Source of the DNA: Candidatus Omnitrophota bacterium
Lineage (GTDB): Bacteria; Omnitrophota; Omnitrophia; Omnitrophales; Aquincolibacteriaceae
Direction: 5' to 3'
Assembly (NCBI GenBank): GCA_003140935.1
Contig: PLLJ01000025.1
Location: forward strand, 1-41,105
DNA length: 41,105 nucleotides
The notes beneath the pieces are model-generated. The model ran no database searches. It saw only the letters and a list, made by a program, of their open reading frames with translations, and was not told where the DNA came from. The position numbers were made by a program, and so were the translations under genes. This document shows positions 5,230 to 41,105 of this stretch, one piece after another; position 1 is the stretch's first letter; each line of letters opens with the position of its first letter.

Positions 5230-5281
5230 GTCTCAGTAAAATATTCCTGCAAGGAAGATTGGAAAAAAGGGCTTCACTTGT

Positions 5282-5310: not shown

Positions 5311-5316
5311 TCTTTT

Positions 5317-5492: not shown

Positions 5493-5534
5493 ATACCCAT
5501 TCAGAGTTAAAGAGAATCGTTCAAGCGATGGCGC

Positions 5535-5620
5535 AGTCCTGATCCTCATTTATTAAAAAAAACGGGTGATTAGGGCAGTCCTTGTCGGCCATTCAAAAAA
5601 TGAAAAAAAGACAAGGGCAG
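5535..5620. repeat. Palindromic repeat pair
   Basis: Two modules of the window-wide family. One is CCTGATC (5538-5544) with GATTAGG (5568-5574); its loop read on the minus strand (ACCCGTTTTTTTTAATAAATGA) resembles the CATGATT-type loop at 17405-17442. The other is CCTTGTC (5580-5586) with GACAAGG (5610-5616) around a CCATTC loop. Linkers are GCAGTC and GCAG. Confidence 0.7.
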
Positions 5621-5694
5621 TACCGCCTCACAAAAACCCGAGAATTTCCGGGCTGCGCCGCGGAAAAGTAGCGCAAAAAGGAGAATAAAAGGAT

Positions 5695-6000: not shown

Positions 6001-6133
6001 GACCTGCTTCCTGTCCGTGAGGACGGGGGCATGATCGCCTAAGACTCGGGGTTCCGGGAAACGGGAGAAAAGAGAAGGTAAGCCCGGCTAGTTTCGAAGC
6101 GGGCGGGCTAATCTGCGGTCCGAACCAAGCACT

Positions 6134-6215
6134 ATCCTTGTCTTGAATTTTAGTTCCTTAATGGATAACAAGGATTGCCCCAATTTCAACTTTGTTGAAA
6201 TTGAAAGGGATTGGG
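6134..6215. repeat. Palindromic repeat pair
   Basis: ATCCTTGT (6134-6141) pairs with ACAAGGAT (6168-6175), with TTAATGG near the right arm. It is followed by the CCCAATTTCAAC-type module (6179-6215) with inner CAATTTCAAC/GTTGAAATTG. The second module is almost identical to those at 2003-2039 and 17536-17572. The rest of 6001-6342 holds a short GC-rich hairpin near 6080-6115, the terC promoter and a strong hairpin. Confidence 0.75.
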
Positions 6216-6231
6216 ACTAATCCCGTCGGCG

Positions 6232-6260
6232 TTGCAGATTGTTTTTATTTAAGATAGTAT
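6232..6260 (+). promoter_or_regulatory. Predicted promoter of the TerC gene
   Basis: TTGCAG (6232-6237), a 17-bp spacer and TAGTAT (6255-6260). Transcription would begin near 6267, inside or at the edge of a perfect hairpin (6265-6296). Confidence 0.4.
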
Positions 6261-6264
6261 ATGC

Positions 6265-6296
6265 AAGAAGGCCGACCCTTCGGGGTCGGCCTTCTT
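6265..6296. promoter_or_regulatory. Perfect 14-bp hairpin with TTCG loop
   Basis: AAGAAGGCCGACCC, loop TTCG, then GGGTCGGCCTTCTT. It is exceptionally stable but has no T-run after it on the plus strand, so it is not a standard intrinsic terminator. On the minus strand no T-run follows either. It may cap and stabilise the 5' end of the terC transcript, or stop read-through from upstream. Confidence 0.5.
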
Positions 6297-6342
6297 GGTA
6301 TGTGGCAAGTGATGAATTTCAGGTCATAGAACCGGAGTTTTA

Positions 6343-7272
6343 ATGAACAATATCCTTGCTTGGTCTATTTTTGGCGTGGTGGTCCTCGTGATGCTCGCGC
6401 TGGATCTCGGCGTTTTTCACAGGCAGGAACACGAAGTGAAGATGAAAGAAGCGCTTATCTGGAGCGGGATCTGGATTGTAGTCGCACTTCTCTTTAATTG
6501 GGGGATCTATCTCGTCAAAGGCAAGGAGCTCGCGATGCAGTTCTTTGCCGGGTATGTTCTAGAGAGGACCCTGAGCTTTGACAATCTTTTCGTGTTTCTT
6601 CTGATCTTCGATTACTTTCAGCTGCCAAGAGTTCATCATCACAGGATCCTCTCACTGGGTATTCTGGGTGCCTTGGTGATGCGCGCGGGTTTCATCGGTT
6701 TTGGGATCGGGCTTTTAAACTATTTTAGCTGGATGATTTATGTGTTTGGCGCGATTCTTGTATGGACGGGTGCAAAAATGGCTTTCGAAAAGGACCAAAA
6801 AGTGGAGCCCGAAAAAAATGTTTTTTTGAGGATTTTTCGGCGCATGATGCCGATCTCGGACGTTTATGATGGATCGGAATTTTTTATCCGAAAGAACGGC
6901 CTGCTTTGCGCGACACCGCTCATGGTCATTATCATTCTTCTCGCATCATCCGACGTGATTTTCGCGGTGGATTCGATCCCCGCAGTTTTGGCGGTATCTA
7001 AAGACCCCTTTGTGGTTTACACCTCTAATATTTTTGCGGTGCTCGGGATGCGGGCCCTATTTTTTGCATTAGCGGAGCTCATGCGGCTTTTCCACCATCT
7101 TCGCTATGGTCTTTCGCTCATCCTGGTCTTGATCGGGATCAAGATGCTCTTGGCATCTTTTTCCCATGTCCCTACGTCGATCACGCTTGGAGCTATATTA
7201 TCTATCTTGGCGGCGTCGGTCGTTGCGTCTATACTTTGGCCCCAAAAATCGAGAGAGTGCAAAAACGGTTGA
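6343..7272 (+). CDS. TerC/Alx-family membrane protein
   Basis: 309 residues with about eight or nine membrane helices, typical for TerC/Alx. The family's acidic membrane motifs are present: RTLSFDNLFVFLLIF (about residues 76-90) and ASSDVIFAVDSIPAVLAVS (about 202-220). Members are implicated in manganese export or metallation of exported proteins, and in E. coli alx responds to high pH and Mn. A GGAG ribosome site lies about 7 nt before the ATG. I looked for the yybP-ykoY manganese riboswitch upstream and did not find it. The gene faces hppA and shares a bidirectional terminator with it. Confidence 0.9.
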   Translation: MNNILAWSIFGVVVLVMLALDLGVFHRQEHEVKMKEALIWSGIWIVVALLFNWGIYLVKGKELAMQFFAGYVLERTLSFDNLFVFLLIFDYFQLPRVHHHRILSLGILGALVMRAGFIGFGIGLLNYFSWMIYVFGAILVWTGAKMAFEKDQKVEPEKNVFLRIFRRMMPISDVYDGSEFFIRKNGLLCATPLMVIIILLASSDVIFAVDSIPAVLAVSKDPFVVYTSNIFAVLGMRALFFALAELMRLFHHLRYGLSLILVLIGIKMLLASFSHVPTSITLGAILSILAASVVASILWPQKSRECKNG

Positions 7273-7406
7273 GCGCTCGAGCCTCCTCAGAGAAGCTTTT
7301 ATCATTCCGTAAGGCGGACTGAGATTTATCCATGAGCATTTTCAAGATCGAGACCTCTTGCGCATGAAATCGTTGTAAAATTCATGGAGTGGCGGTAGCC
7401 ATTTAT

Positions 7407-7448
7407 AAAAAAAAGCGCAGGACGGCGGGCCGCCCTGCGCTTTTTTTT
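7407..7448. terminator. Bidirectional intrinsic terminator between terC-like gene and hppA
   Basis: A nearly perfect palindrome: eight As, GCGCAGG-a-CGGC, GG, GCCG-CCCTGCGC, eight Ts. It terminates both convergent transcripts, since each strand ends in a T-run. Confidence 0.9.
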
Positions 7449-7456
7449 ATTAATGT

Positions 7457-25047: not shown

Positions 25048-25809
25048 ATGATCGATGTCCAGAATCTGACGATGAAATACGGTAGTTTTGTGGCTTTGGA
25101 CCGCATCTCTTTCCAGATGCAGGAAGGGGAGATCCTGGGTCTTTTGGGGCCCAACGGTGCGGGAAAGACCACCGCGATGAGGATCCTGACGACCTACCTT
25201 TGTCCCTCCTCCGGGACCGCCAAGATCGATCAATTCGATATTCTTCAAAATCCCATCGAAGTCCGGAAACAAATCGGTTATTTACCGGAGACTGCACCGC
25301 TTTATTCGGATATGCAGGTGGACGAGTATATCGCTTTTGTCGGGAACGCCCGAAAGATGAAGGGCAAACTCCTCGAGGACCGGACGAATTGGGTCAAGGA
25401 TGTATGTGGCATCAAAGAGGTCTGGAAGCACACGATCTCCGAACTTTCCAAAGGATACCGGCAGCGCGTCGGGTTGGCGCAAGCCCTGATCCACGATCCC
25501 AAGGTCCTGATCCTGGACGAACCCACATCGGGGCTGGACCCGCTTCAGATCATCGATATCCGTGAATTGATCAAAGGGTTGGCCCGGAAAAAGACCATCA
25601 TCTTCTCCACGCACATTCTCCAGGAAGTTGAGGCCATGGCCGACCGGATCGTTATTATTAATGAAGGGAAGATCGTGGCCCAGGGGACCCAGGCGGAGTT
25701 GACGGAGCAGGTCCGGAAACGGGGAGAATCCAAAACGGCGGAGACCCTGGAGGATGTTTTTATCGCTTTCTTAAGATCAAAGAGAGGGGCTAAAAAGCCG
25801 GCGCTATGA
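25048..25809 (+). CDS. ABC transporter ATP-binding protein, GldA-like
   Basis: 253 residues. Walker A GPNGAGKTT near residue 36, Q-loop IGYLPETAPLY, signature LSKGYRQRVGLAQALIHDP, Walker B VLILDEPTSGLDP and the switch STHIL are all intact, so this is an active ATPase. The family is the DrrA/CcmA-type with closest resemblance to GldA of the gliding-motility ABC exporter. Its stop overlaps the ATG of the permease gene (ATGA at 25806), so the two are one transporter. Despite the Gld name, such operons are widespread in non-gliding bacteria. Confidence 0.92.
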   Translation: MIDVQNLTMKYGSFVALDRISFQMQEGEILGLLGPNGAGKTTAMRILTTYLCPSSGTAKIDQFDILQNPIEVRKQIGYLPETAPLYSDMQVDEYIAFVGNARKMKGKLLEDRTNWVKDVCGIKEVWKHTISELSKGYRQRVGLAQALIHDPKVLILDEPTSGLDPLQIIDIRELIKGLARKKTIIFSTHILQEVEAMADRIVIINEGKIVAQGTQAELTEQVRKRGESKTAETLEDVFIAFLRSKRGAKKPAL

Positions 25810-28301
25810 TCAATTTCGGGGACCTTTTCACGATCTTTAAGCGGGAGAACAAAGCCTATTTCAACTCTCCGATCGCTTATATCTTTATCATTGTCTTCGT
25901 TCTTCTTGGAAACGGGCTTTTCATGACGCAGTTCTTCATCGCCGGCCGGGCCGATATGCGTCCGTTCTTCGGAACACTTCCCCTGATCCTGGCGGTTTTT
26001 CTTCCTGCGGTGACCATGCGGCTTTGGGCCGAGGAAAAGAAGGGGAACACGATGGAGCTTCTGCTGACCTTTCCTATGCGAACCCATGAGCTTGTGCTGG
26101 GGAAATTCGTTGCAAGCCTGGTCTTCTATTTTGTGGCATTGGCGTCGACCGTCATGATCCCGGTCATGCTCTTTTTTCTCGGAAAACCGGACCTCGGGGC
26201 CATGGCAAGCGCCTATATGGGAGCGGTCTTCCTCGGCGCGTTTTTTCTTGCCATAGGCATTTTTGTTTCGGGGATCGTCCGGGACCAAATCATCGCTTTC
26301 ATTTTGTCCATGATGGTCTGCTTTTCTCTTTATGTGGTCGGAACGGGATTTTTTGCTTCTGCCGTGGACGGCTGGGTCCCGGGGATGGGTTCTTTTTTGA
26401 GGAATTTTCTGGGAGTGACGCGCCACTTTGATTCTTTTGCCAGAGGGGTCGTGGACAACCGGGATGTCGTTTATTTCATGCTCGGATCGGCCATTTTTCT
26501 TACGCTGAACGGCTTTTGGCTGGAAGGACGCATGCGGCCCAAGGCAAAGGCCATTTTCACGACGGCGGCGCTGGTGTGCGCCGGGATCTTTTTGACAGCG
26601 AACTGGTTGCTGGCCGAGATCCCGCTCGGCCGTTTTGATATGACCCAAGGGCAGATCTATACGATCTCGCCATGGACGGAAAAACTTTTACAGGGGTTAA
26701 AAGCTCCCGTGACCGCGAAACTTTATATTTCTCCCTCCGAAAAAATGCCGACCGCATTGAAACCTTTGGAGCAGGAAATCGTGGACAAGCTGGATGAATT
26801 CCGCATCGCCGCGAAAGGAAAATTCCAATACAAGATCTTCCACATGGAGGCCGCAAACGTAACGGCGGAGGGCAAGCAGAAAGAGGATTCGCTGGAACAG
26901 CAACTTTCGGAGAAGGGGATCAAGCCTTTCCAGGTCCAGTCCATCCAGGCGGACGAGGTCGGAATGAATCTGGTCTACTCCGCCCTCAGCCTGGCTTATA
27001 AAGAAAAGCCCGAAGAGATCATCGGCCGCGTCATTCCCGACAACATTGCCGAGCTCGAGTATCTCATCATCTCGAGGATCTATCGCATGATGCTTCCCGA
27101 GCCTCCCCAGGTCGCGCTTATGGCGCCTTATAAAGAAAAGGAAATGGAGCCGGAGCTTAAACCTCTTGTGGACAAAATGGGCGGGAAGATCCCGGAAGGA
27201 TATAAGGAAGACAACTATGAGCTGCTGCCTATGGCGCTCGGCTATGCGGGATACAAGACTTCCCGGATCAAACTGACGGAGAAAGAGCCCATTCCGGAAA
27301 AGACGAAGACCTTGATCGTGGTCGATCCCAACAAGCTTGAAGAGCGGCAACGTTATGAGATCGACCGGTTCCTTGCGGGCGGGGGTTCTCTCTTTCTTGC
27401 CGTTCAGAACTACGAATATAACTATACGATATCAGGCAAAGAACTGACGGTCGGGGCTACGGAGAAAAGGCCCCAGATCAATCCTCTGATCGCAGGGTGG
27501 GGGTTCGAAGTGGACGATCAGATCCTGGTCGATGAGCAGAACGATGTTGTGAACGTCAGCGGTGCCGCGCGGCTTGGCCCTTATGAACTCTCCGTGCCCG
27601 TCAAGATCCCGATCCAGATCCTGGTGAACCAGACCGGTATGAATCCGGATGTTTCGATCACCTCGCGTCTTTCGCCGCTCTTTTATTTATGGGGGACGCG
27701 GTTGAAGTTGAATGATGCCAAGATCAAGTCCCAGGGGTTGAAAGTAGAAACGTTGCTTACATCGAGCAGGGATTCCTGGACGGTGCCTTTTAAATCCGAA
27801 AACCTGACCCCCAAAGACCTGAACCCTTTGGCGGATAGCCCTCACGGTCCTTTTCCTTTAGCGGTCATGGCGCAAGGGCTCTTTCAGGATCTTTACGCGG
27901 AAAAGCAGGTTCCTGCCTGGCCGCAATCGGCACCCGCAGGAACGGATTCCAAAGCGATCGAAACCCCTGAGCCTCAACCTCTCGAACCGCATCAGGGAAA
28001 AATGATCCTGATGGGGGCATCGTCCTTTTTTCAGAAACATCTGCTTCGCAACGGCGGCCATTTGACTTTTTTTCTGAATTGCGTGGATGCCCTGACGCTT
28101 GGGGATGAACTTGTCAGGATCCGTTCGAAGCAGCCCATTGAAAGAACGATCGATAGGATTTCTTCCGCCGCTAAAGTGATATGGCGTTTTGTGGTGACCC
28201 TTTTGGTTCCCATCGTCATCGCCTTTATCGGGATGATTAGAGGGATCTGGCGGAGGCGCTCGAAGCAAGCCTATCTGAAAATGCTGGCGCTTGTTGAATA
28301 G
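25806..28301 (+). CDS. ABC-2 permease fused to a GldG-type auxiliary domain
   Basis: 831 residues, a natural fusion of GldF and GldG. Residues 1-240 form six membrane helices of an ABC-2 permease, including AEEKKGNTMELLLTFPMRTHELVLGKF, the family signature. After another helix (about 253-272) comes the GldG extracytoplasmic domain: RFDMTQGQIYTISPWTEKLL, KLYISPSEKMP, IISRIYRMM, and LIVVDPNKLEERQRYEIDRFLAGGGSLFLAV. A final helix near 795-815 has a basic cytoplasmic tail. It works with the ATPase before it; the substrate is unknown, though a surface polymer or lipid is suspected. The following DUF4340 gene completes the usual three-gene set. Confidence 0.9.
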   Translation: MINFGDLFTIFKRENKAYFNSPIAYIFIIVFVLLGNGLFMTQFFIAGRADMRPFFGTLPLILAVFLPAVTMRLWAEEKKGNTMELLLTFPMRTHELVLGKFVASLVFYFVALASTVMIPVMLFFLGKPDLGAMASAYMGAVFLGAFFLAIGIFVSGIVRDQIIAFILSMMVCFSLYVVGTGFFASAVDGWVPGMGSFLRNFLGVTRHFDSFARGVVDNRDVVYFMLGSAIFLTLNGFWLEGRMRPKAKAIFTTAALVCAGIFLTANWLLAEIPLGRFDMTQGQIYTISPWTEKLLQGLKAPVTAKLYISPSEKMPTALKPLEQEIVDKLDEFRIAAKGKFQYKIFHMEAANVTAEGKQKEDSLEQQLSEKGIKPFQVQSIQADEVGMNLVYSALSLAYKEKPEEIIGRVIPDNIAELEYLIISRIYRMMLPEPPQVALMAPYKEKEMEPELKPLVDKMGGKIPEGYKEDNYELLPMALGYAGYKTSRIKLTEKEPIPEKTKTLIVVDPNKLEERQRYEIDRFLAGGGSLFLAVQNYEYNYTISGKELTVGATEKRPQINPLIAGWGFEVDDQILVDEQNDVVNVSGAARLGPYELSVPVKIPIQILVNQTGMNPDVSITSRLSPLFYLWGTRLKLNDAKIKSQGLKVETLLTSSRDSWTVPFKSENLTPKDLNPLADSPHGPFPLAVMAQGLFQDLYAEKQVPAWPQSAPAGTDSKAIETPEPQPLEPHQGKMILMGASSFFQKHLLRNGGHLTFFLNCVDALTLGDELVRIRSKQPIERTIDRISSAAKVIWRFVVTLLVPIVIAFIGMIRGIWRRRSKQAYLKMLALVE

Positions 28302-28322
28302 GGAAAAGAAAGAAGGCGCGAC

Positions 28323-29714
28323 GTGAAACTGAAACATCTTGTGATCTTTGGAGTTCTCCTTGCTCTGTTGGCCCTGGCTGTCGTCTTGAAGCAGCATCAG
28401 AAACCCGCCGAATTGACCACGGAAGAATACGTTCCCCTGAACCTTTCCTTTGACAGCGCCAAGGTTGCCCGGATCGAGATCGGAAAAGGGAAAAACCCGA
28501 AAGCTGTTGAGATCAAGAAAAACGAAGCCGGGGTCTGGGTCCTTCCGACGTTTTTTGGCGCCCGCGCGGATGAGAAAAAGATCCAGGACCTTTTCAAAGC
28601 CATCCCCGAAGCGAAAGGAGAACTCCGCGCCAAGGACAAGGCGCTTTTCGCGGATTTCGGACTCACGGAAGATAAAGCTTATCGGATCGGGTTTCTGGAT
28701 GGGGCAGGGAAACCCGTCTTCACGTTACTCCTCGGGCCTAAGATACCGCAGTATGCCTCCGTTTTTTTGAGAAAAGCGGATTCCGATCAGGTCTTTTACG
28801 CGGGGGCGGATCTTTTCGGCAGGATCGGGATTTATGATGACCCCGAGAAATCCTCGCCTAAAAGCGATACTTGGGCAAGTTTGATCCTGGCGGACCCGAA
28901 GTCGGACCAAGTGGATGAACTTGAGATCCAGCGTTCTACCGGAGGCAAGAAAATGACGGTCAGTCACGTACGCCGCGAGACCGATCCGAACGATCTTTCG
29001 AAAAAATGGTGGAAATACGAACGCGCGGGAGTGCCGTTCGCGCCGGATGCCGCCAAGATCAAACAATTTTTCAAAGTTCTTGGGACGAGCCCAGCCTCCA
29101 AGGCGCTGGATCCCAAAGCAAAAGATTATGGTTTTTCCGCGTCCAAGTGGCAGATGAAACTTCATCAAGACAATGGACAGGAGGTCCTTATCACGGCGGG
29201 CGCCGAAGATCCCGCGACGCAGGGGATTTTTATACAGGTCTCGAACGAACCTGTGGTGTTCTTGCTTCCGAAATATTACTTCAATAACCTTGACGTCGAT
29301 GACAGTAAATTCTTCGGTGAAAATCCTCTGGCGATCGATACCGAAAAGATCGAGAAGATCTTCGTTCACGCTCCGTCCGGAGAGGTCGCTTTTTCTCCGA
29401 AGACCGATAAGCGGGATGCCGTGAACCGTTATGTGAATAATTTAAAAGGGCTGCTTGTTTCCAAGCTTGTTTTTGATCCCTCGGCCAAGATCCAATCCAA
29501 ATCGGGGCAATTGAACTGGATCGAGATCAAAAAAGAAGGAGTTCCGGAAACTTTCTTTTTGGACGTCGAAGGAACGCCGTCCGGAGGAGGGAAGGAATAT
29601 CTGGCGGGGAAGCGGGACGGCACGCAACTTTTCCTAATTTCCGAGAGCTCCTTTAAAAATCTTTTCGGGGACTTGCGATCCCTTGAACCTCCTCCTGAGC
29701 CCGCAAAAACATAG
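28323..29714 (+). CDS. DUF4340 membrane-anchored protein
   Basis: 463 residues, GTG start with AGAAGG 6 nt before it. One N-terminal membrane helix (HLVIFGVLLALLALAVVLKQ) anchors a large extracytoplasmic domain with two similar halves. Each half has the DUF4340 pattern: V-A-R-I-E-I near 48 with GVWVLPTFFGARADEKKIQDL, and again KIEKIFVHAPSGEVAF near 345. The family nearly always follows GldA-GldFG genes, and is thought to be a periplasmic partner of that exporter. The gene ends 552 bp before the next gene; no strong terminator is seen. Confidence 0.88.
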   Translation: MKLKHLVIFGVLLALLALAVVLKQHQKPAELTTEEYVPLNLSFDSAKVARIEIGKGKNPKAVEIKKNEAGVWVLPTFFGARADEKKIQDLFKAIPEAKGELRAKDKALFADFGLTEDKAYRIGFLDGAGKPVFTLLLGPKIPQYASVFLRKADSDQVFYAGADLFGRIGIYDDPEKSSPKSDTWASLILADPKSDQVDELEIQRSTGGKKMTVSHVRRETDPNDLSKKWWKYERAGVPFAPDAAKIKQFFKVLGTSPASKALDPKAKDYGFSASKWQMKLHQDNGQEVLITAGAEDPATQGIFIQVSNEPVVFLLPKYYFNNLDVDDSKFFGENPLAIDTEKIEKIFVHAPSGEVAFSPKTDKRDAVNRYVNNLKGLLVSKLVFDPSAKIQSKSGQLNWIEIKKEGVPETFFLDVEGTPSGGGKEYLAGKRDGTQLFLISESSFKNLFGDLRSLEPPPEPAKT

Positions 29715-30014: not shown

Positions 30015-30098
30015 ACGATGGTGTAAAGAGCAAACCTGGAGTGATCCAGGGACGCAAAACCATGCATCCTTGAAAGGAATGGCAGGTTGCCACCAAAA
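30015..30098 (+). promoter_or_regulatory. Cyclic di-GMP-I (GEMM) riboswitch aptamer
   Basis: All the conserved blocks are present in order. P1 is formed by TGGTG (30019-30023) and CACCA (30091-30095). GAGCAAACC leads into P2, a perfect CCTGGA-GTGA-TCCAGG hairpin whose GTGA loop is a GNRA tetraloop. Then comes the nearly invariant GGGACGCAAA, then P3 (CATCC to GGAATG), then the conserved GGTTGCC. This matches the Vibrio Vc2-type c-di-GMP aptamer. An intrinsic terminator follows at 30144-30180 and the regulated operon starts at 30267. ON or OFF logic cannot be decided by eye. Confidence 0.88.
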
Positions 30099-30143: not shown

Positions 30144-30180
30144 GCCAGGTAAAGCCAAGCTTTTGCCTGGCATTTTTTTT
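30144..30180 (+). terminator. Intrinsic terminator in the riboswitch expression platform
   Basis: GCCAGGTAAAG pairs with CTTTTGCCTGGC, followed by eight Ts at 30173-30180. It lies between the c-di-GMP aptamer and the first gene, so c-di-GMP probably decides read-through. Its CCAGG/CCTGG arms share sequence with aptamer helix P2, so strands could exchange partners. Confidence 0.75.
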
Positions 30181-30191: not shown

Positions 30192-30208
30192 AAAGTGCCA
30201 GGCACTTT
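30192..30208. repeat. REP-like perfect palindrome before the transposase-derived gene
   Basis: AAAGTGCC-A-GGCACTTT, 8-bp perfect arms. Its core TGCCAGGCA is the reverse complement of the TGCCTGGCA in the terminator just upstream. Such GC-core palindromes commonly flank RAYT genes and are their recognition sites, so this may be bound by the protein encoded downstream. Confidence 0.5.
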
Positions 30209-30266
30209 TACAATACAGCGGGCCCATTTGCTCCGGTGGCCGTGAGGATCAAAGGAGGCAGGCGCG

Positions 30267-31535
30267 ATGCCTAGATTTCCAAGGATCCATTTAGAAGACG
30301 CGGTTTACTCCATCCAGATGGAAGGCCCGTCCGGCGAATCTATTTATAAAGACGCCGAGGATTATCAAAAATATTCAAGCATCCTCTCCCAGGCCAAACA
30401 AGAATTCGGCTTTAAACTTTTTTCCTATGCTCTCTTGCCCGACCGCATTCATCTGCTGATCGAACCCACAGAAGAACATTCGGTCTCCCAGATCATGCAG
30501 AAGATCACGCCGAACTACACCAAATACTATAATAGTAAGTACGGCCGCAAAGGCCATCTCTTCCCCAAACGCTTCCGTTCAGTCTATGTCGAGCGTACTG
30601 CCTATCTCCCCAAGCTTACGCGTTTCATCCATCTTCTTCCGGAACGCAACGGCGTCGCCGCGAGTTTCCGCGATTATCCTTATACGAGCTACGCGGCTTA
30701 CACGGCGAACGCGAAGGCATCCGTTCCGGTCGATGCGGCCGAGGTCATGGGGTCGCTTGGGACGACTACGGTCGAAGATCCCTATGAGCGTTACATGCTT
30801 TCCGCGGACGAACACGAAACGGAATTTCTTGAAAAGAAATTATCCCGCGGCTCTTTCCTCGGTTCGGAGGAGTTCACGGCGAAGGTCCGCCGGGAGATCG
30901 CTTTGCAAGCCGCGAAAAAAGAACAGGAAGTGCCCGCGGAAGAAGTCCTTGCGGAAGCGCCGGTTCTTTCGAGCCCGGTTCCCACGGCATTCGTTTCCCA
31001 TGGCAGTTGGAAAATGCGGCCGGTCATTCTTTCGGGAGCACTCTTCGCCGCCGTTGCGTTCAGCGTTTTTTCCGTGACCCTGAACCATCCAACGCTTCAA
31101 GTCGCTCCGGCCTCTAAAGCGGTCCAAGCGCAGGTCGCTCCGGTCTCCAAAATGATCGCGCGCGCGACGCCGCGCACATTCAAGACCCCGATCGAAGGCA
31201 TGATCTGGGAAGTCGAGATCTACACGGTCACCAAAGACGGGAACGCGCAGCCCATCAAGGACAAGATCCGTTTCAACGGGAAATCTTTCGAATCTTATTA
31301 TTTTTCGAGCCAGGGCTTCAGCCCTTCGAATTACACAGTGAGGGTCCGTGAGAACGGGGCCATCACCTGGGAAACGATGCAGAGGAACCCTAAGGGTCAG
31401 ATCATCAGCTGGCGCGGGGACCTGGAAGGAGATCAAATGGCCGGCGTTATGAGTTTTCAGTCAAATAACAAAAACGCTCAGGATTTTTCTTTCATGAGCA
31501 AAAAAGCGACCGTAGGAGCAATGCAAAATGGATAA
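30267..31535 (+). CDS. Transposase-derived (RAYT/IS200-like) domain fused to membrane anchor and extracytoplasmic domain
   Basis: 422 residues with an AAAGGAGG ribosome site. Residues 1-145 are a REP-associated tyrosine-transposase (Y1_Tnp) fold: FKLFSYALLPDRIHLLIEP, GRKGHLFPKRFRSVYVE, RFIHLLPERNGVAASFRDYP. The HUH motif reads R60-I-H62, losing the first His, and the catalytic Tyr (Y115 of E. coli TnpA-REP) is F120. Residues 165-215 keep the family's tail (DPYERYM, FLGSEEFTAKV). A membrane helix follows at about 252-272, then an extracytoplasmic beta-rich domain (IEGMIWEVEIYTVTKDGNAQ to SFQSNNK) like calycin-type small domains. So the catalytic centre is dead but DNA binding may persist, as in ToxR-like membrane regulators. 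Its end overlaps the next ATG by 8 bp. Function inferred. Confidence 0.8.
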   Translation: MPRFPRIHLEDAVYSIQMEGPSGESIYKDAEDYQKYSSILSQAKQEFGFKLFSYALLPDRIHLLIEPTEEHSVSQIMQKITPNYTKYYNSKYGRKGHLFPKRFRSVYVERTAYLPKLTRFIHLLPERNGVAASFRDYPYTSYAAYTANAKASVPVDAAEVMGSLGTTTVEDPYERYMLSADEHETEFLEKKLSRGSFLGSEEFTAKVRREIALQAAKKEQEVPAEEVLAEAPVLSSPVPTAFVSHGSWKMRPVILSGALFAAVAFSVFSVTLNHPTLQVAPASKAVQAQVAPVSKMIARATPRTFKTPIEGMIWEVEIYTVTKDGNAQPIKDKIRFNGKSFESYYFSSQGFSPSNYTVRVRENGAITWETMQRNPKGQIISWRGDLEGDQMAGVMSFQSNNKNAQDFSFMSKKATVGAMQNG

Positions 31536-32235
31536 ACGAAAGCATATTCTTTTAGGAGTTGGTTTGATCGCACTTACCGTGGTCTTTTACCCGGTGGTTC
31601 TTTGGGCCGCGACCGATGCCTCGGATACCACAGGCAGCACTTCCAACGAACCTTCGACCGCGTTGAGTCGATCGATTGAGGCTGGTAAAGCGGTGTCGAA
31701 ACGCGCGCTTTCCAGTAAGGCCAAGGAGGCGGACGCGGAGGCAGTGCAGACAAAGCCAACAAAGATTGAAAAAACAGAACCCACGGCTTTTCAAAAAAAA
31801 ATGGCGGCCATCGCACAAGGGGAAACGTCCAGTACGGAGAACACCCTTTCCGATTTTGCGACCCAGGCCTCACCCGCCGTAAAAAATGCGTCTACCGTCA
31901 AAAAAACTGATGCTGTAAAAAAAGCAGATGCCACAAAAGATCAGGAGGCCGAGGCGGAGAAAATTCCGATGGCTGAGATGACGACAAAGGGGACCGTCAC
32001 GGGCGTCAGCCCTCAGGGGTTTGCTTTGGAATATGGCATTGATAAAAAAGCCGGAAGCATGGAAATTTGGTTCAATTACAACGATGGCATAAAGTTTTCC
32101 GGCATGGGAAGCGCCGGGGAACTCGGAGAAGGCGACACGGTGTTCGTGGTCTATGACCAGGCGCCGAATAAGGTCCGGATCGTCAAGGAAATGACGCTTC
32201 TTAAGAAAAAACCGAAAGAAACAGAAGGAATGTAA
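31528..32235 (+). CDS. Exported Lys/Ala-rich protein with C-terminal OB-like domain
   Basis: 235 residues. MDKRKHILLGVGLIALTVVF is a signal peptide or membrane anchor, cut near LWA. Residues 30-150 are low-complexity, rich in Ala, Lys, Thr and Ser, and probably a flexible linker. The last 80 residues (TTKGTVTGVSPQGFALEYGI onward) form a compact beta domain resembling the exported protein at 12084-12401. AGGAG lies just before the ATG, which overlaps the previous gene. The stop is directly followed by the ATG of the giant protein, so all three are translated together. It could be a periplasmic chaperone or accessory of the giant protein, which is inference. Confidence 0.65.
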   Translation: MDKRKHILLGVGLIALTVVFYPVVLWAATDASDTTGSTSNEPSTALSRSIEAGKAVSKRALSSKAKEADAEAVQTKPTKIEKTEPTAFQKKMAAIAQGETSSTENTLSDFATQASPAVKNASTVKKTDAVKKADATKDQEAEAEKIPMAEMTTKGTVTGVSPQGFALEYGIDKKAGSMEIWFNYNDGIKFSGMGSAGELGEGDTVFVVYDQAPNKVRIVKEMTLLKKKPKETEGM

Positions 32236-35200
32236 ATGACCGGAGACGAAGGAATCAAAAACCGGAAGGCGGAAGGCGGAGGGCGAAAGGCGTCCGTTCT
32301 CGGACTTTTCGCGCTGATCGGGTTTTCCTTCATGCTTAACTTCTTCGTCCCTTCTGCCGAGGCGTCGCAGATCAAGCGCGTCATGCGCGGTACCGCCCAG
32401 TTCGATACGGTCGATGTGACGCAGTCCGTGACACTCCCCAATGAAGTGGATATGTCAAAATCCATCATTTTGATCACAAACACGGGCGTTGCAGCCAATG
32501 CCAATGATCAGAATTACTTTTTTACGGCCCAATTCGCGACCACCGGCAGCATCAACATCGACCGCGCGGGTGCTACGGTCGAAGCGAGCGTGGCTTGGGA
32601 AGTCATCGAGTTTGAAGACGGCGTTTCGGTTCAGCGCGGCGTTTCCAGTATGCAGTCGTCGGGGGCCGGCAGTTTAATAAAAACCATTTCCATCGCGAAC
32701 ATCGACAGGACGAAATCTGTCCCGATCGTCACGGTCCGCGCGGCCTATACCACCGCGAACCAGACGAATCAATTGCATCTGCTCCCCACGCTCCTCTCGG
32801 ACAACGGGACGCTACAACTTGAACGTAAAGTCGTTTCCGGAACCAAGGCGATCTCCATTGTCTGGCAGGTGATCACTTTTACGAAGGATGTGACGGTCCA
32901 AACAAATGCTTTTCTCATCCCGGCTGACTCGAACGGGGTCGATAACTATGATGAAGATTATGTGACCGCCGTCACCAATCCTCTTCTCTTCACTTATTTT
33001 GCGGGCGACACCGCGGTTGCCGGGGTCGACACTCAGGAATGGACCAGCGGTATCTACTGCGCCGCGAGCGCGGCGGGGGACTGCACGGGGGCTGCTTCCT
33101 ATCCCGCAGTGAGATTTTTCCGGTATAACAATGTCAATACCGTCGGTCACTCCGTCTACGGCCAATATTATCTTGTGGATTTTACCGATGACGCAAGTTT
33201 CGGCCAAGCGGGAAACACCACATGGGCCACGGGCGCTTCTAACCAGCTTACCATTGTTACGTTAGCCACCCGGACGATCGCGGCGCAGACCGCCAGCGTC
33301 AGCACCACCGGTATTACGGACACCACGCCGATCAGGATCCGGACGACGGCTAACCACGGATTCGCGACGAACGATGTGGTGACCATTAGCACAGCCGCCT
33401 ACGGCGGCCTGACGATCAATGGAACTTCCAATATCGGTATCACGAACACCGGTCCGATCAGGATCCGGACCACGGCCAATCACGGACTTTCGACCGGGGA
33501 TATTGTCACCATTTCCGGCACGACGACGGCGAATTACACGATCAACGGCACCACGAACACCGGTATCGCGAATTCCACTCCGATCAGGATCCAACTGACG
33601 GCCAACCATACTTTCAACACAGGCACCTATGTCACCATTTCCGGGTCTGCGATGACGACTTATACCATTGCCACGAAAGCGAATAACGGCATCGTGAACA
33701 CGACCCCGATCCGGCTGACACTCACGGCCAATCACCCTTATGCGACCAATGCCCAGGTCGTGATCAGCGGCGCCGGTATTGCGGCCCTGAACACAGTTTG
33801 GGGTGTCAATGCGGGGGCAGCCTGTCCGGCCCATGAGGGCTTAGCGACCCCGTGCGCCGCCAATCAAATAGAGTTACAGGGGAGTGTAGGGCTCGGCAAG
33901 GGCGGCGGCGGCAGCGTGGTGACGAATTTAAACAAAGATTATCAGATCAGAACAGGGGCATCCTGTCCAACCCATGACGGTTTACCGGCTACGTGTGCCG
34001 CCAATCAATTGGAGTTGCTTAACACTTACGCAAGCGGTCCGGACAACGGTGGAAACGTAGCGGCCCGTGTCAACGGGCGCTGGTATATCAAAACCACAGG
34101 GAACGCGACGGACTTTACTTTGGCGGATCCTGTCACTCAAGTGGATACCGTGGCAAGCGGCGTCGGCCTTGGCGGCTCGGTCACGGATGATGTTCCTACG
34201 GTGGTCAATAAAAGTTGGGCGATCAAAGCCGGGGCAGACTGTACCGCCCATGACACCTTGACGACCCCGTGTAGCGCCGCTGAATTTGAGTTGATCAACA
34301 GTACGAAAGCCGGTCCCGGAGGCGGCGGGACGGTGTCCGGTTCCACCCTTGCGGGTGTCAATAAACGCGCGGACGGCCAGACGATACGCATTAACACCAC
34401 CGCCAATCACGGACTTACCTCGGGAGATGTCGTCAATATTGATAATTGCGGGGATGTATCCCTTGACGGGGACTGGCCTGTCATCAATAACACGCTTACC
34501 TCCTTTTTCCTGGCCGGTTCGGATTCGGTCAATATTACCACGGATAACAGCGGTGGAACGGTGCAAAAGCCACAAGTAGGCTCCGCATTAACGGCGATCG
34601 TGCCCTCCAGGACCATCGATTGGATATCCACGCGCGCTCAAAGCGCTGCCGGTACTGCTAACCGCGGGGCCTACGCTCTGTCCATAGTCGGCTGGCTTCG
34701 TCACGACATAACGGCGCCTGACACCACCACGACGATCTATGAAACACTCCGCGGAATGGACGCCTCGACCGAGTCGAGCAAGAATATTTTTTATGTGACG
34801 GAACTCAGTCCGCTGACCCTAAAAACGCCGGACGGGGCTGAGACGGGCACTTTGGCGTGGGTCGTGGGGAGCACGTCTTATGTCACTTGGGTGAATTCCG
34901 CCGATGTGGCCGCCCATAACTGGGAGCTTCAGATGTCGACCAACAGCGGCGGTGCCTATGCGGATCTGACCACAGGCTGTATCAAACCTTCCGACCAATC
35001 GAATGTCGCGTGCACCAGCGCCGCGACCGGAATTCCGATAGATGCAGGGGAAGGGGTCCCAGGCAGAAGGACCGTAGGGTGGGTGGTCCCGGACAATATC
35101 GGGATCGCCACCAGGATCCGCATGGTCGATACGACTCTCTGCGCTCATGCCGCTTGTGCGGACAATACCACGAACAATAAACGGTACCGTGATTCATCCA

Positions 35201-38200
35201 ACGCTGACTTCGTGATCCGCGGGTCCATATCAAATATCGTTGCGTCCGACGCTGGCGGAGCCCTCAATGCTATCGGTGTCGGCGGTAATCCGCTCGGTGT
35301 TGGAAATACCGATCTCGCTCTGACTTGGTCTCATACGGGAAGTATCGGAACCGTTACTATTGAACTCTGTCCTACCGGAGATGCAGGTTGCACGGGTGCT
35401 GTGACGATCAAAACCGGCGTTTCAGGCACCGGCGGTGCTTGCAATGCCGCTTGTACGGCATGGACGGTTCCCAATAATGTGTCCACCACGGCCAAGATCC
35501 GTGTCCGTGAAACAGTGCCGCCCACAGGAACCACGGTTGCAGACGTGAGTCCTGTGTTCGAGATCCGGCCCAGGATCAACGTTCTAAAACCGGACGTAAG
35601 CTCTACATGGGTGCGCGGTCAAGGGCAGAGTCCGACGCCGACGAACGGCGTAATTCGGTGGTGCACGGCTGGAACGGTCGGCAACGTGGACATCAAGTAT
35701 TCCAGCGACGGCGGCAACACCTATTCAGACTTGGTGGCTCACCCAGACCAAGTGATTGCGAATACGGCGGGGGTGAGTGATGGGTTGGGCGCTCAAGGTT
35801 GCGGGGCGGCTGAAAACGCGTATCACTACAATTGGACGCTTCCGGGGAATCTTGTCGTGAGCGCGGGCAGTTCCATGATCAAGGTCGTCAAGAACGGGGA
35901 TACCCAAGAGCTTGTCATGAAAGAATCCGCTCTTTTTACCACCAAGGCTTCCGTTCAGTTGGATACCCCGGCGACCTCCACTGTTTTGCGGTACCAGCAA
36001 TCGACCCCTATTGCGTGGAGCAGTCCGGGCGGCGGATTGGGAACCGTGAAACTGATGTATTGCAACGGTTATGTGGCCAACGGCTGCCAAAATACTCCGG
36101 GAGACGCGGACTGGATCCAGATCACCGATCCGACATCCGCCACGAATTTGGCCTCGGGCGCTTCGCCATGGTCCTGGAATGTTCAGGCGCCCGTGGGTAC
36201 GGATGTGGGTCTTTTGGTCGCCGATATGACCAGCCCCACGCTCATTTGGCATAATCTCGGTCCCTACACGGTCAAGGCCTGGTTCAGCGTAGCGGAACCT
36301 CATTCGGGCGAGGTGCTTCGCATCGGTGGCGCGAAAACCATTTCCTGGACGGATCACGGCCAGGGCGCTCAGGATGTTTATATTTGCATCGATTCCAATA
36401 ATGATGGCGCTTGCGAGTACTATCTTGTCAATTCGGCGGGAGTGGTCCAGGCGAGTACCCAGCAATACAGCGATTGGTCTCCTCCGAACGGCGGAGCGAC
36501 GGTCCTCAAAGATGATATTCCGCGATGCGCTTCCTGCCGTGTCCGTGTGTATAAACCCGGCGACGATCCGGTCGACCAGACGGGAACTTTCGGAAAATCG
36601 GACCTTTTCTCGATCAAGGGGAATATCACCGGCGCCGCGATCGGAGGCACGGGACCTTACCTGGTCGGACAGAGCGTCACGGTTTCGTGGACTTCCGCAC
36701 CCAACACCAACTGGACCACGGTGCGTCTGAGTTATTCTAAGAACGGGACCACTTGGACGGATTTCGCATCCTCCGGGTCAGGATGCACGACGACGATGGC
36801 GGCCAATACGGGCTCCTGCAGTTGGACGGTTCCTAACGACGTGAACATCGTTTCGGAAGGCGCTTCAAGGATCCGGGTCCAGGACGATGCGGACGCCACG
36901 AATACAAGTTCCACGTCGAATCTTTACACGGTGAGGGCCACTTTGGCGCTCGGTGCGCTGACGGGATCCCCTTGGAAGATCGGCACGGCCCATGATATTT
37001 CCTGGACCAAGACCGGAGACACCGCGATCACGACGGTCAACCTCAAGTATTCGCTTAACGGAGGCACGAGCTACGACTATTTGATCAAATCCCTGGGCGC
37101 CGGGCTGAGTCCTTATACCTGGTGCGTCGGGAAAAATGACGGTTGCAGCGGGACCACGCAGGGCCAGAACGCGAACGATCCTCTTTTGGTGATCGGGGCG
37201 GCTGACAAAAATGTGACGGTCAAGATCATGATCGAAGATGCGAATAATACCAAGGCCAACGGCGGGACCTATAGCGAGTCTTCGAACATCACCATCCAAA
37301 AGGATTACTCGACGGTGAAGGTGGGAGGACTTTCAAGCGGCGCCGTTCTTTATGTCGGAGACTCCAATCCGGGCGGTTTGTCCGGGCCCGACAGCATCAC
37401 GTGGACGACACTTGGGGATTCGACGAGCAAAGTTTTCCTGGCGTATCAAACAAGCGGTTACACGTTTCCGACGAATAATATAGAAGACACGCCGGGCAAG
37501 AACGATGTCGGCGCCTACCATTTGTGGACCGTGCCTGACAGTATCGGAAATGCGGTAAAGATCCGGATCAAGAATGCCTCCTATCCCACGGACATCTATG
37601 CGGATTCCGGGACTTTTGTCATCAAAGGAAAGATCACGGCTTCGTTCCCGGACGGCAGTACGACTTTGGTGGTCGGAACGGACGTGACGGGCGGCATTCA
37701 ATATGTGAAATATGGAACTCTCGGGAACCTTGAGATCATTTACAATCATAACGGGTATACGACCGTGATCACGCCCGGCGCATCGCCTGGTCCCGAGGGA
37801 ACGAGCGCGGCGACCTCGTTCGCGTGGACGGTCGCGGCCACCGATTCCAATGGCGGGAATGTGATCGATACCAGCGGCACGAAGTACAGCAAGTTCAAGC
37901 TAACCGGCCTTACGGACAAAGGGAATACGGACCTTGAAGCCACGGTCGAAACGCCGCTTTTTCAGATCCGCGGTGATCTTTATGACGGCACGGATTCCAA
38001 ACTCCTCAAGGAGCCGGGAGGCGGGGAAGTTTACGCGATCGGCGGGACGACCCAATACATCCGGTGGAAAGCGCGCGGTAATCTCGGAAATCTGAAAATG
38101 AGTTTGGACACGAACGCAGGAAAGGGCGTCGATAATACCACCGACACCAGCGATGATTATACCACCTCGATCCGGCGGCCCGACAGCAAGTGCGGCACGC

Positions 38201-41105
38201 CGCCGTGCTACGCGTCATCGGTGCCGTATACCGGGGACGGGACGGACGGGCAAGGTTATTATTATCTTGAATGGATCGTTCCGAATCTCGTGACTTCCAA
38301 AGCGAGGATCCGCGTCGAGAGCATCGCCAACGCTTACGATTATACGAATCCGACCAAGGCCATGGCGACTTATGCCGCGACCAGCTCGAACAATTTCTGG
38401 ATCCGGCCGACCGTTACCGTGGTGTCTCCGAACGGGGTGCAGACGCCTCATTGGAAAACGGGTGAGACCGCGAAAACGATCACGGTCAATTCCACCGGCG
38501 ACGCGAAACTCGACGTTTGGGTTTGTTATAACAATGCCTCGGGCGCTTGGCCCGATTGCACGAGTAAATACGTGGTCACGTCCGCCCAGCAGGTGAGCGC
38601 GGGGAATACCAATCTCTCATGGGATGTCCCGGCTGGGTTCAGTACGGATAATGCCATTATCCATGCGCAGTGGACGGACCAGGCTACGATCTCGGATGAA
38701 TCGAATGCCATATTCATGATCAAACCTGTCCTCACTCTCACGAAACCTGTCGACAATACCACGCAATTTGTCGTCGGAGCCTCCACCTACTCATCGGCGA
38801 TCGCATGGAACGCACCGAATGGGACATCTCCTAACATCGATATTTTGCTTTCGACGGACGGAGGCGGCACTTATCCAGTCACGATCCAATCGAATTATCC
38901 TGTCGGGAACGGCAACGCCGACTGGACCCTCGATGAGACGACTTACAATTCCCTTATCACAAAAACGGCCAAGATCAAGATCCAAAAACACGGAGACACC
39001 AACGTTTTGAGCGAATCCACCCAGAGTTTTTACATCAAGGGCGCGTTTTCCAATGTTTATGTCAAAGTGAACGCCGGCGATGCGGATCCTTCGACTCCGA
39101 TCGATCTTCCGATCGCGACTACGCGCTACATCACCTGGGAATACACCGGGAACATGGGGACGGTCAACGTCTATTACGCCACGGATGCCGACCAGGCACC
39201 TCCGACCTGGCTCCCCGTCTCCGGGGCAGGGACGTGTGTAGGTAGTGTTTCCATTGGTTCAAGCGGGAGCGGCAACTGTACCTGGACGGTCCCCAACGCG
39301 CCTTCCGCGAACGTGAAAGTAAAGATCGCGAACGTCACCAACACCAATTGGCCGGACGTGAGCAATGTGAGCTCGGGACTTGCCAGTATCATCGGCAGCA
39401 TCTCTGACGTCTGTGTGTTGTCGGGCACGAATTGCGCGAGCGATAATGCGGGGGCTTCCATGGATGTCGCTGGCAGCAAGGTGATCCGTTGGAAGCCGAA
39501 CGGCGCTATATCACTTTTTGATATTGAATACCGCGTAGGGGGAGGAAGCTGGAGCGCGACGCCGATCACGGGAACCAATGGCGTGGCCGGGTCGGTGAAC
39601 GGAAATTACAAGGAATGGACCTGGACAAGTATCCCGGACACTATTTCCAATGACGTGGATTTCCGGGTCGAGGACCACAGTAACCCGAGCAAGGTGAGCT
39701 GTACCAGCGATGATGCGGGCTGCAATACTTCACGGTTCCAGCAGTCCGTCACCAATATTTACGGTTATATCCTCAAGGGCCAATTGAGCATTGTTTCTCC
39801 GATCGTGACGGATGTGCGTACGATCGGCTCGACGCCGAGCCCGTCGATCCGCTGGAGTAAATATGGAAGCATCGGGGACCTGAAGATCGAGTACTCGACG
39901 ACCGGCAGCTTCACGGCGCAGGATTACACGGACGGGAACGTGTTCATGATCGTGAACAATTATGCTTCAGGCAGCGACGGCAATAATGATTACGCATGGC
40001 AGACGGGTGTCATTGGCGCCAATCGCAAGATCTCGGATACGAGCGCGATCCGGATCACGAATTTGAGCGCCCCTGTGGGCACCGAGTTGGATAAGACGAG
40101 CGCTCTCTTCAAGATCCGCCCCTCGATCAATTCCCTGGACAATCCGACGGGTTCGACGGTTTGGTTCGCAACGGACACCGACACCGTGAATCAAACCATC
40201 AACTGGACGAATAATAGCGGCACGAAATCAGGAGGGGTGGCACCGACCTGTATCGTGGAGTATTCGACGAACGGAACGGATTATTACACCGTAACGGGCG
40301 GCACGGCCGTGGCTTGCGGCCAGGGGTCGCACAGCCTGACGTGGTCTCCGATGGCGGACTTGAGGAACGCGACGGTGCGCGTGCGTGTTTCCTATAATGA
40401 TTACCCCTCGATCAATCTGGAATCCGGCCAGTTCACGGTCCGTCCGAAAGTTGTGGTGACGCCGACTCCGGACGGGAGCACGAAATTGGCAGTGGGTCAG
40501 ACGTATAACAATCTGATCAAGTGGACTTATTCGGGGACTACGACCAACCACACAGTCGAGATCCGTTATGACACGGGAGCGAACACATTCCCCTCGAATC
40601 AGGTGATCGCGACGGGTGTTGCCGCGAACTTGGGCGCGACGGGTGTGACGTGGACGAATGTCCCTGACATCATCGGTTCGAATGTGAAGGTCCGGGTGTT
40701 CGATCTGGGTTTTACGGCCGCAGCAGGTGATTCCCCAGCCTTTACAGTCGTCGGAGGCATCATCTTCGGCTCTCCGCAAAGCAGTAGTACGAATGTGACG
40801 GCGAGTACGGCGATGGATATCAATTGGACTTATACCGGGACGACCCCGAACTTTGATATTTATTACAGTAAAGCGACGACCCCGAGCGCATTCCCGAGCT
40901 CGGACTGGACCCGCATCGCACAGAACGTGGGGTCGGGGACTTATTGCGCGGCAGGGAGTTGTACTTATAACTGGGCGGTCACGGGTCTGAATGATGATAC
41001 GGTGACGAACACGGCGGGTTTTTACGTGAACAACACTCTGGACTCGGCGAATTCACTTTATGCGTCAAGCCAGGGAACTCAGTTCAAGCGGGGTGCGGAT
41101 GTCAG
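32236..41105 (+). CDS. Giant repeat-rich exported surface protein (partial, runs off right edge)
   Basis: The frame is open for at least 2,956 residues with no stop. A basic leader (NRKAEGGGRKAS) and hydrophobic core end in PSAEA, a signal peptidase site. An N-terminal domain (about 45-345) is followed by four 42-residue repeats at exact 126-bp spacing, resembling the E1-FCCH-type fold (TANHGLSTGDIVTISG). Three Cys-pair, glycine-ended repeats (about 520-700) and one more FCCH-like copy come next. From about residue 860 come about 17 Ig-like units of 100-140 residues. Each has an I-x-W strand, a Y-S-x-D-G-G-type turn, W-x-V-P-D, then K-I-R-V and F-x-I-(K/R), as in Ser/Thr-rich Kre9/KNH-like domains. 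It is rich in Thr, Ser and Asn with few Lys. Likely a c-di-GMP-controlled adhesin; no anchor is visible. Confidence 0.85.
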   Translation, partial: MTGDEGIKNRKAEGGGRKASVLGLFALIGFSFMLNFFVPSAEASQIKRVMRGTAQFDTVDVTQSVTLPNEVDMSKSIILITNTGVAANANDQNYFFTAQFATTGSINIDRAGATVEASVAWEVIEFEDGVSVQRGVSSMQSSGAGSLIKTISIANIDRTKSVPIVTVRAAYTTANQTNQLHLLPTLLSDNGTLQLERKVVSGTKAISIVWQVITFTKDVTVQTNAFLIPADSNGVDNYDEDYVTAVTNPLLFTYFAGDTAVAGVDTQEWTSGIYCAASAAGDCTGAASYPAVRFFRYNNVNTVGHSVYGQYYLVDFTDDASFGQAGNTTWATGASNQLTIVTLATRTIAAQTASVSTTGITDTTPIRIRTTANHGFATNDVVTISTAAYGGLTINGTSNIGITNTGPIRIRTTANHGLSTGDIVTISGTTTANYTINGTTNTGIANSTPIRIQLTANHTFNTGTYVTISGSAMTTYTIATKANNGIVNTTPIRLTLTANHPYATNAQVVISGAGIAALNTVWGVNAGAACPAHEGLATPCAANQIELQGSVGLGKGGGGSVVTNLNKDYQIRTGASCPTHDGLPATCAANQLELLNTYASGPDNGGNVAARVNGRWYIKTTGNATDFTLADPVTQVDTVASGVGLGGSVTDDVPTVVNKSWAIKAGADCTAHDTLTTPCSAAEFELINSTKAGPGGGGTVSGSTLAGVNKRADGQTIRINTTANHGLTSGDVVNIDNCGDVSLDGDWPVINNTLTSFFLAGSDSVNITTDNSGGTVQKPQVGSALTAIVPSRTIDWISTRAQSAAGTANRGAYALSIVGWLRHDITAPDTTTTIYETLRGMDASTESSKNIFYVTELSPLTLKTPDGAETGTLAWVVGSTSYVTWVNSADVAAHNWELQMSTNSGGAYADLTTGCIKPSDQSNVACTSAATGIPIDAGEGVPGRRTVGWVVPDNIGIATRIRMVDTTLCAHAACADNTTNNKRYRDSSNADFVIRGSISNIVASDAGGALNAIGVGGNPLGVGNTDLALTWSHTGSIGTVTIELCPTGDAGCTGAVTIKTGVSGTGGACNAACTAWTVPNNVSTTAKIRVRETVPPTGTTVADVSPVFEIRPRINVLKPDVSSTWVRGQGQSPTPTNGVIRWCTAGTVGNVDIKYSSDGGNTYSDLVAHPDQVIANTAGVSDGLGAQGCGAAENAYHYNWTLPGNLVVSAGSSMIKVVKNGDTQELVMKESALFTTKASVQLDTPATSTVLRYQQSTPIAWSSPGGGLGTVKLMYCNGYVANGCQNTPGDADWIQITDPTSATNLASGASPWSWNVQAPVGTDVGLLVADMTSPTLIWHNLGPYTVKAWFSVAEPHSGEVLRIGGAKTISWTDHGQGAQDVYICIDSNNDGACEYYLVNSAGVVQASTQQYSDWSPPNGGATVLKDDIPRCASCRVRVYKPGDDPVDQTGTFGKSDLFSIKGNITGAAIGGTGPYLVGQSVTVSWTSAPNTNWTTVRLSYSKNGTTWTDFASSGSGCTTTMAANTGSCSWTVPNDVNIVSEGASRIRVQDDADATNTSSTSNLYTVRATLALGALTGSPWKIGTAHDISWTKTGDTAITTVNLKYSLNGGTSYDYLIKSLGAGLSPYTWCVGKNDGCSGTTQGQNANDPLLVIGAADKNVTVKIMIEDANNTKANGGTYSESSNITIQKDYSTVKVGGLSSGAVLYVGDSNPGGLSGPDSITWTTLGDSTSKVFLAYQTSGYTFPTNNIEDTPGKNDVGAYHLWTVPDSIGNAVKIRIKNASYPTDIYADSGTFVIKGKITASFPDGSTTLVVGTDVTGGIQYVKYGTLGNLEIIYNHNGYTTVITPGASPGPEGTSAATSFAWTVAATDSNGGNVIDTSGTKYSKFKLTGLTDKGNTDLEATVETPLFQIRGDLYDGTDSKLLKEPGGGEVYAIGGTTQYIRWKARGNLGNLKMSLDTNAGKGVDNTTDTSDDYTTSIRRPDSKCGTPPCYASSVPYTGDGTDGQGYYYLEWIVPNLVTSKARIRVESIANAYDYTNPTKAMATYAATSSNNFWIRPTVTVVSPNGVQTPHWKTGETAKTITVNSTGDAKLDVWVCYNNASGAWPDCTSKYVVTSAQQVSAGNTNLSWDVPAGFSTDNAIIHAQWTDQATISDESNAIFMIKPVLTLTKPVDNTTQFVVGASTYSSAIAWNAPNGTSPNIDILLSTDGGGTYPVTIQSNYPVGNGNADWTLDETTYNSLITKTAKIKIQKHGDTNVLSESTQSFYIKGAFSNVYVKVNAGDADPSTPIDLPIATTRYITWEYTGNMGTVNVYYATDADQAPPTWLPVSGAGTCVGSVSIGSSGSGNCTWTVPNAPSANVKVKIANVTNTNWPDVSNVSSGLASIIGSISDVCVLSGTNCASDNAGASMDVAGSKVIRWKPNGAISLFDIEYRVGGGSWSATPITGTNGVAGSVNGNYKEWTWTSIPDTISNDVDFRVEDHSNPSKVSCTSDDAGCNTSRFQQSVTNIYGYILKGQLSIVSPIVTDVRTIGSTPSPSIRWSKYGSIGDLKIEYSTTGSFTAQDYTDGNVFMIVNNYASGSDGNNDYAWQTGVIGANRKISDTSAIRITNLSAPVGTELDKTSALFKIRPSINSLDNPTGSTVWFATDTDTVNQTINWTNNSGTKSGGVAPTCIVEYSTNGTDYYTVTGGTAVACGQGSHSLTWSPMADLRNATVRVRVSYNDYPSINLESGQFTVRPKVVVTPTPDGSTKLAVGQTYNNLIKWTYSGTTTNHTVEIRYDTGANTFPSNQVIATGVAANLGATGVTWTNVPDIIGSNVKVRVFDLGFTAAAGDSPAFTVVGGIIFGSPQSSSTNVTASTAMDINWTYTGTTPNFDIYYSKATTPSAFPSSDWTRIAQNVGSGTYCAAGSCTYNWAVTGLNDDTVTNTAGFYVNNTLDSANSLYASSQGTQFKRGADV
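33310..33813 (+). repeat. Four tandem 126-bp repeats inside the giant gene
   Basis: The repeated GI(T/A/V)N(T/S) start occurs at 33310, 33436, 33562 and 33688, exactly 126 bp apart. At the DNA level CCGATCAGGATCCG recurs in the first units and degrades to CCGATCCGGCTG in the fourth, as expected of a decaying tandem duplication. A related, unlinked copy begins near 34381. Confidence 0.85.
34815..41105 (+). repeat. Array of about 17 Ig-like domain repeats in the giant gene
   Basis: Unit borders, marked by F-x-I-(R/K) or equivalents, lie near 35213, 35560, 35940, 36268, 36610, 36925, 37290, 37615, 37966, 38395, 38712, 39030, 39385, 39766, 40110, 40434 and 40741. Units are 102-143 residues long and differ strongly in DNA sequence, so this is an old array rather than a recent expansion. 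Confidence 0.7.

Follow-up and report, generated by a model that had tools for sequence, protein, structure and literature searches.

What would a bacterium gain from a transposase domain that has lost the residues for cutting DNA and is joined to a membrane helix? This question is raised by an open reading frame in an uncultured bacterial phylum, Candidatus Omnitrophota, located at positions 30267–31535 (+) of contig PLLJ01000025.1 (assembly GCA_003140935.1). The stretch of DNA analysed (the window) comprises positions 1–41,105 of this contig. From the sequence alone, an initial annotation had described the encoded protein as a catalytically dead RAYT/IS200 transposase domain fused to a membrane helix and an external domain. 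It proposed that the protein cannot cut DNA but may still bind a REP-like hairpin while sensing something outside, as a one-component membrane regulator analogous to ToxR or CadC, for which it knew of no described case.

We first asked whether the annotated architecture is real. The features of the locus are as follows, with binding and function inferred from sequence and predicted structure.

30019..30094 (+), c-di-GMP-I riboswitch aptamer (RF01051)
30144..30180 (+), intrinsic terminator, with an 11-pair stem at 30144–30171 and a U-run
30192..30208 (+), AAAGTGCCAGGCACTTT hairpin, putative binding site of the protein
30251..30258 (+), Shine-Dalgarno sequence AAAGGAGG
30267..31535 (+), membrane-anchored RAYT-derived protein, 422 aa
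30267..30716 (+), Y1/RAYT domain (about residues 1–150), with R60 at 30444–30446, H62 at 30450–30452 and F120 at 30624–30626
31023..31079 (+), transmembrane (TM) helix, residues 253–271
31200..31514 (+), predicted extracytoplasmic 8-stranded beta-barrel domain, residues 312–416
31528..32235 (+), small exported/membrane protein, in the same operon position as the ~150 aa proteins of relatives
32236..41103 (+), giant repetitive surface protein, open at the contig end (>2956 aa)

The coordinates, frame and length of the reading frame were correct, and the sequence before the ATG provides a good Shine-Dalgarno match. Pfam Y1_Tnp matched residues 31–122 (E = 4.4e-10), whereas the NCBIfam model REP_Tyr_transpos scored 49 bits, below its curated cut-off of 80. 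An AlphaFold model, built with a 26-sequence family alignment, was confident over the Y1 domain and the barrel (pLDDT mostly above 90, about 94 in the barrel) and low in the linker regions 232–256 and 276–305. A helical linker lies between the Y1 domain and the TM helix. The best Foldseek hit in the PDB was 4er8, TnpAREP bound to a REP hairpin (TMt 0.72, E 1.5e-6), followed by the IS608/ISDra2 transposases, so the N-terminal part does have a predicted Y1 fold of the TnpAREP type. Alignment confirmed R60-I-H62 in place of the HxH (HUH) motif and F120 in place of the tyrosine, and showed that the metal-ligand Asn of the class signature Y---NP (PMC6006769) is also lost (L124). The protein is therefore RAYT-derived but not a functional RAYT, and it should not cut DNA, although this is inferred from sequence. 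It is the only Y1_Tnp gene in its 2.4 Mb genome.

The TM helix was assigned by hydropathy rather than by a trained predictor, with a maximum of 2.16 at residues 253–271 and a helix at 257–272 in the model. More positive charge lies before than after the TM segment in 33 of 55 family members, against 10 the other way, so the orientation is N-in/C-out. The C-terminal domain folds confidently as an 8-stranded barrel, with a weak likeness to calycin-type and related barrels such as the NHBA C-terminal domain, nitrophorin and factor H binding protein. The same domain occurs as stand-alone proteins with N-terminal signal sequences encoded in neighbouring genes, which supports an extracytoplasmic location; the outer domain is almost certainly outside. 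The initial observation is thus confirmed.

To establish whether the protein is a one-off, we searched for relatives. A scan of genome contigs with the single sequence found nothing. A profile of the first four full-length homologues, searched in 384 genomes of the phylum, found about 40 full-length proteins and a further group that shares the Y1–TM arrangement but has another C-terminus. A GTDB scan with a degenerate pattern found 41 loci, mostly in Candidatus Omnitrophota, with no TM member certain outside it; one locus (L148) is named Planctomycetales in its record but has the same riboswitch leader. The 56 Y1–TM proteins retained, which are the best-scoring members under one profile and come from MAGs that are often fragmented, form one clade (100/99) against 15 ordinary RAYTs, a small outgroup sample.

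Of the 56 proteins, 33 have lost one to three of the catalytic residues, with at least 10 changes on the tree, while 23 keep both histidines and the tyrosine, as do 14 of the 15 ordinary RAYTs. Intact homologues of the same Y1–TM architecture had been named beforehand as evidence that would refute the initial interpretation, which by the letter of that test is partly refuted; their presence removes catalytic death as the defining trait, though not the idea of a membrane regulator. The fold/binding positions R3, R6, S74, Y84, K86, G96 and R102, as well as S141, are invariant in the 33 dead members. The dN/dS values (Nei–Gojobori) for pairs of dead Y1 domains were 0.06–0.09, compared with 0.07 for an intact pair. 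The domain is under strong purifying selection and is therefore kept for something other than cutting. A chance reading frame or pseudogene was ruled out by the intact frame, the good start, the purifying selection and the 56 homologues. A role in a defence system found no support, as PADLOC gave no hit for the protein.

We next examined the setting of the gene, which the initial annotation had missed apart from the palindrome. The c-di-GMP-I aptamer scored 55.6 bits (gathering score 35) and is the only one found in this genome at that threshold; together with the terminator, it constitutes an aptamer with an expression platform. A riboswitch was found upstream of 47 of 56 family members and of 0 of 5 ordinary RAYT controls, and a hairpin followed by a T-run precedes the gene in 52 of 56. 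The terminator stem is often CCAGGC...GCCTGG, and its 3' arm (TGCCTGGCA in the window) is the exact reverse complement of TGCCAGGCA in the motif; TGCCTG is present in 25 of 52 terminators, which may reflect extra pairing or a second binding site.

The palindrome at 30192–30208 is exact and folds as a DNA hairpin (−5.6 kcal/mol). It belongs to a conserved GTGCCAGGCAC hairpin motif that is far beyond chance, its core lying upstream of 53 of 56 family genes against 1 of 56 shuffled sequences. The core lies 22 nt from the start of the U-run in the window and 20–24 nt from it in 48 of 56 loci, 45 of these at 21–23 nt, even in GC-rich lineages with unrelated terminator stems. In contrast, the distance from the motif to the start codon varies from 23 to 276 nt. 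The fixed spacing could in part be inherited, since all loci are orthologous. It is kept beside intact (22 of 23) and non-intact (26 of 33) members alike.

The 13-mer AAGTGCCWGGCAC occurs only once in the 2.4 Mb genome of the window (G000), which rules out a dispersed REP regulon there. In one motif scan, every copy in 6 of the 7 genomes with hits lay within about 400 bp of the gene, and in the seventh (G143) about 0.65 kb upstream. In most genomes with a family member, the 13-mer occurs only at this locus. The exceptions are three genomes of one family, f43 (G208, G270 and G339), and the genome G042, where it is dispersed like a REP (up to 14 forward sites); several f43 genomes also carry 14–20 c-di-GMP-I riboswitches.

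Downstream, the small exported protein and the giant ORF follow in the same orientation, and a giant-family ORF lies near the gene in 49 of 56 loci. Where contigs allow, the giant ORF is 4,111 to 10,669 aa long, and it is open beyond 12,641 aa in one case. In the window, it runs off the contig end after 2,956 aa, and a matching giant C-terminal part opens contig C52 of the same genome (positions 1–8838). The gene is therefore probably split by assembly and at least about 6,000 aa long, a join that is likely but inferred. Also on C52 (L139:6008–10162), a stand-alone, signal-peptide copy of the barrel domain clusters with a secretin, a TPR protein and, on the other strand, a relative of the small exported protein; a stand-alone barrel in such a cluster was also seen in the genome G117. 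By hand count, 29 of 49 genomes with a strong giant C-terminal hit also have the Y1–TM protein, or 30 with a contig-edge fragment, whereas 19–20 of the 49, several of them fragmented, show no such protein. The stretches retrieved as leaders of giant genes in genomes without the protein were still inside the giant repeats or at contig ends.

Taken together, the analysis establishes the family, the domain architecture at the level of sequence and predicted structure, the constraint on the Y1 domain, and a conserved module of riboswitch, terminator, hairpin at fixed spacing, Y1(RAYT)–TM–barrel protein, small exported protein and giant surface protein. Binding of the hairpin, its cleavage or loss of cleavage, regulation and sensing are inferences from these data. 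We consider it about as likely as not (probability roughly 0.5) that the protein is a membrane-tethered, transposase-derived autoregulator. RAYTs bind folded single-stranded hairpins next to a short tag (PMC8266576). A polymerase pausing on a U-run covers roughly the next 18–20 bp. A site 19 nt past the first U (the AAA of AAAGTGCC), with the core G at 22 ± 1 nt, would put a bound protein at the front edge of such a polymerase. There it would alter read-through into the giant operon, as a roadblock or anti-termination factor acting on top of the c-di-GMP switch. In this view, the outer barrel would report a state of the envelope, perhaps of the secretin-linked apparatus whose gene cluster carries stand-alone copies of the same barrel, and so close a feedback loop on giant-protein production; catalysis would not be needed for this job and would decay repeatedly. 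However, the site lies inside the transcribed leader, so binding to DNA is not proven over binding to RNA, and the intact triad in 23 of 56 members means that cutting may matter in some lineages. More tentatively still, and somewhat less likely than not, the module may be a phylum-wide regulatory device in which a transposase-derived, membrane-embedded protein binds a hairpin placed one polymerase length beyond a c-di-GMP-controlled terminator and would thereby integrate an envelope signal with c-di-GMP to decide read-through into giant surface-protein genes.

The initial interpretation is partly supported by these results. The fusion is real and conserved, and a cognate-looking hairpin lies beside the gene in almost every relative. 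The riboswitch, the terminator, the giant gene and the fixed spacing, on the other hand, point to a role at the protein's own leader rather than to a ToxR-type promoter activator. As in ToxR/CadC-type regulators, a cytoplasmic domain, one TM helix and an outer domain are present in one chain, and the charge bias and signal-peptide paralogues of the outer domain fit this arrangement, with nucleic-acid binding itself inferred. The cytoplasmic domain, however, has a Y1 fold instead of a winged helix-turn-helix, and the site sits after a terminator in the protein's own leader, not at a distant promoter.

Compared with TnpAREP and other RAYTs (REP-associated tyrosine transposases; class 2 of Quentin et al., 2018, PMC6006769; E. 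coli TnpAREP, PDB 4er8, PMC8266576), the protein shares the Y1/HUH fold, RAYT signature residues, a hairpin site next to its own gene and single-copy presence. It differs in the added TM helix and predicted extracytoplasmic barrel, in the loss of catalytic residues in 33 of 56 members, in a site usually confined to its own leader instead of dispersed REPs, and in its fixed place under a riboswitch; the text of PMC6006769 contains no mention of membrane segments. c-di-GMP-I riboswitch operons for surface proteins likewise have an aptamer and terminator ahead of an operon for an extracellular protein, but here a site-bearing spacer and a membrane Y1 protein are added between switch and structural gene. 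Giant ORFs above 20 kb, with proposed adhesion roles, are common and poorly understood in Omnitrophota (Seymour et al., 2023, PMC10066038); that paper's text mentions no riboswitch, c-di-GMP or transposase, and the regulatory head found here appears unreported there. Literature searches for membrane-anchored or inactive HUH/IS200 regulators found no described case, in a collection from which subscription papers were mostly missing. Domesticated RAYTs have long been kept by bacteria without a clear host function. A family with a fixed genomic address, a fixed cis site and repeated loss of catalysis makes the question of what a non-cutting RAYT does directly testable. It also gives a first regulatory handle on the giant genes of Omnitrophota, and suggests a membrane protein that may read both a second messenger's riboswitch leader and the cell envelope.

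The main alternative, which we consider possible but unlikely, is that the Y1 domain binds the motif as an RNA hairpin in the 5' leader and tethers the very long giant-gene mRNA to the membrane, or represses its translation, to couple synthesis with export. The main motif copy lies downstream of the terminator, inside the mRNA, in nearly all loci, the leader RNA folds the hairpin, and changes in the core often keep G-U pairs, with one subclade swapping GTGC/GCAC for GTAC/GTAC. However, covariation gave the hairpin only weak support: 62 of 2000 shuffles reached the observed number of Watson-Crick pairs, 314 of 2000 when G-U was counted, and the outer AAA/TTT is not paired. Pair conservation thus does not decide between DNA and RNA. 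Fixed spacing to the U-run but not to the start codon fits the transcribing polymerase better than translation, and RAYTs are known DNA-hairpin binders (PMC8266576). DNA binding is also the better fit for a short-type subclade that lacks the barrel (loci L133, L135, L136, L123, L125 and L132), in which a second motif copy lies upstream of the aptamer. These loci carry the variant site GTRCCACGYA, with one copy on each side of the riboswitch–terminator, so site and protein type seem to co-vary. At a further locus (L131, on contig C20 of genome G122), two tandem copies of the short-type module occur, each with its own riboswitch.

Slightly less likely still is a relic, in which a RAYT's own flanking REP-like sites persist by descent and the protein now binds nothing and only holds its outer barrel at the membrane, in a structural or secretion role. 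RAYT genes are typically flanked by their own REPs (PMC6006769), one ordinary RAYT in the phylum also has a similar GCGCCAGGCAC hairpin upstream, and motif copies are not dispersed in most genomes. Against this stand the strong purifying selection on the dead Y1 domain, the full conservation of its basic/fold residues, and the retention of the motif and its spacing across a phylum at about 30% protein identity. A membrane-tethered nickase, still cutting single-stranded DNA at the leader in lineages with the full triad and with the dead members as derived regulators, is very unlikely: although 23 of 56 members keep the triad, tandem motif copies are common in that part of the tree and copies are dispersed like REPs in f43, tandem copies also occur beside dead members, most genomes with intact members (G071, G148, G149 and G162) show no dispersed copies, and dead members are under equal constraint.

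Other neighbours of these genes were also recorded. A HEPN-nucleotidyltransferase (MNT-type) toxin-antitoxin-like pair lies next to the module in G143 (L087:9861–10584), with the same clusters in genomes G249 and G121. A group I intron match (63.7 bits) was found upstream of an ordinary RAYT gene (L243:169–368). In the window itself, positions 25048–29714, directly upstream and on the same strand, encode an ABC transporter with GldG-like ABC_transp_aux and DUF4340 proteins.
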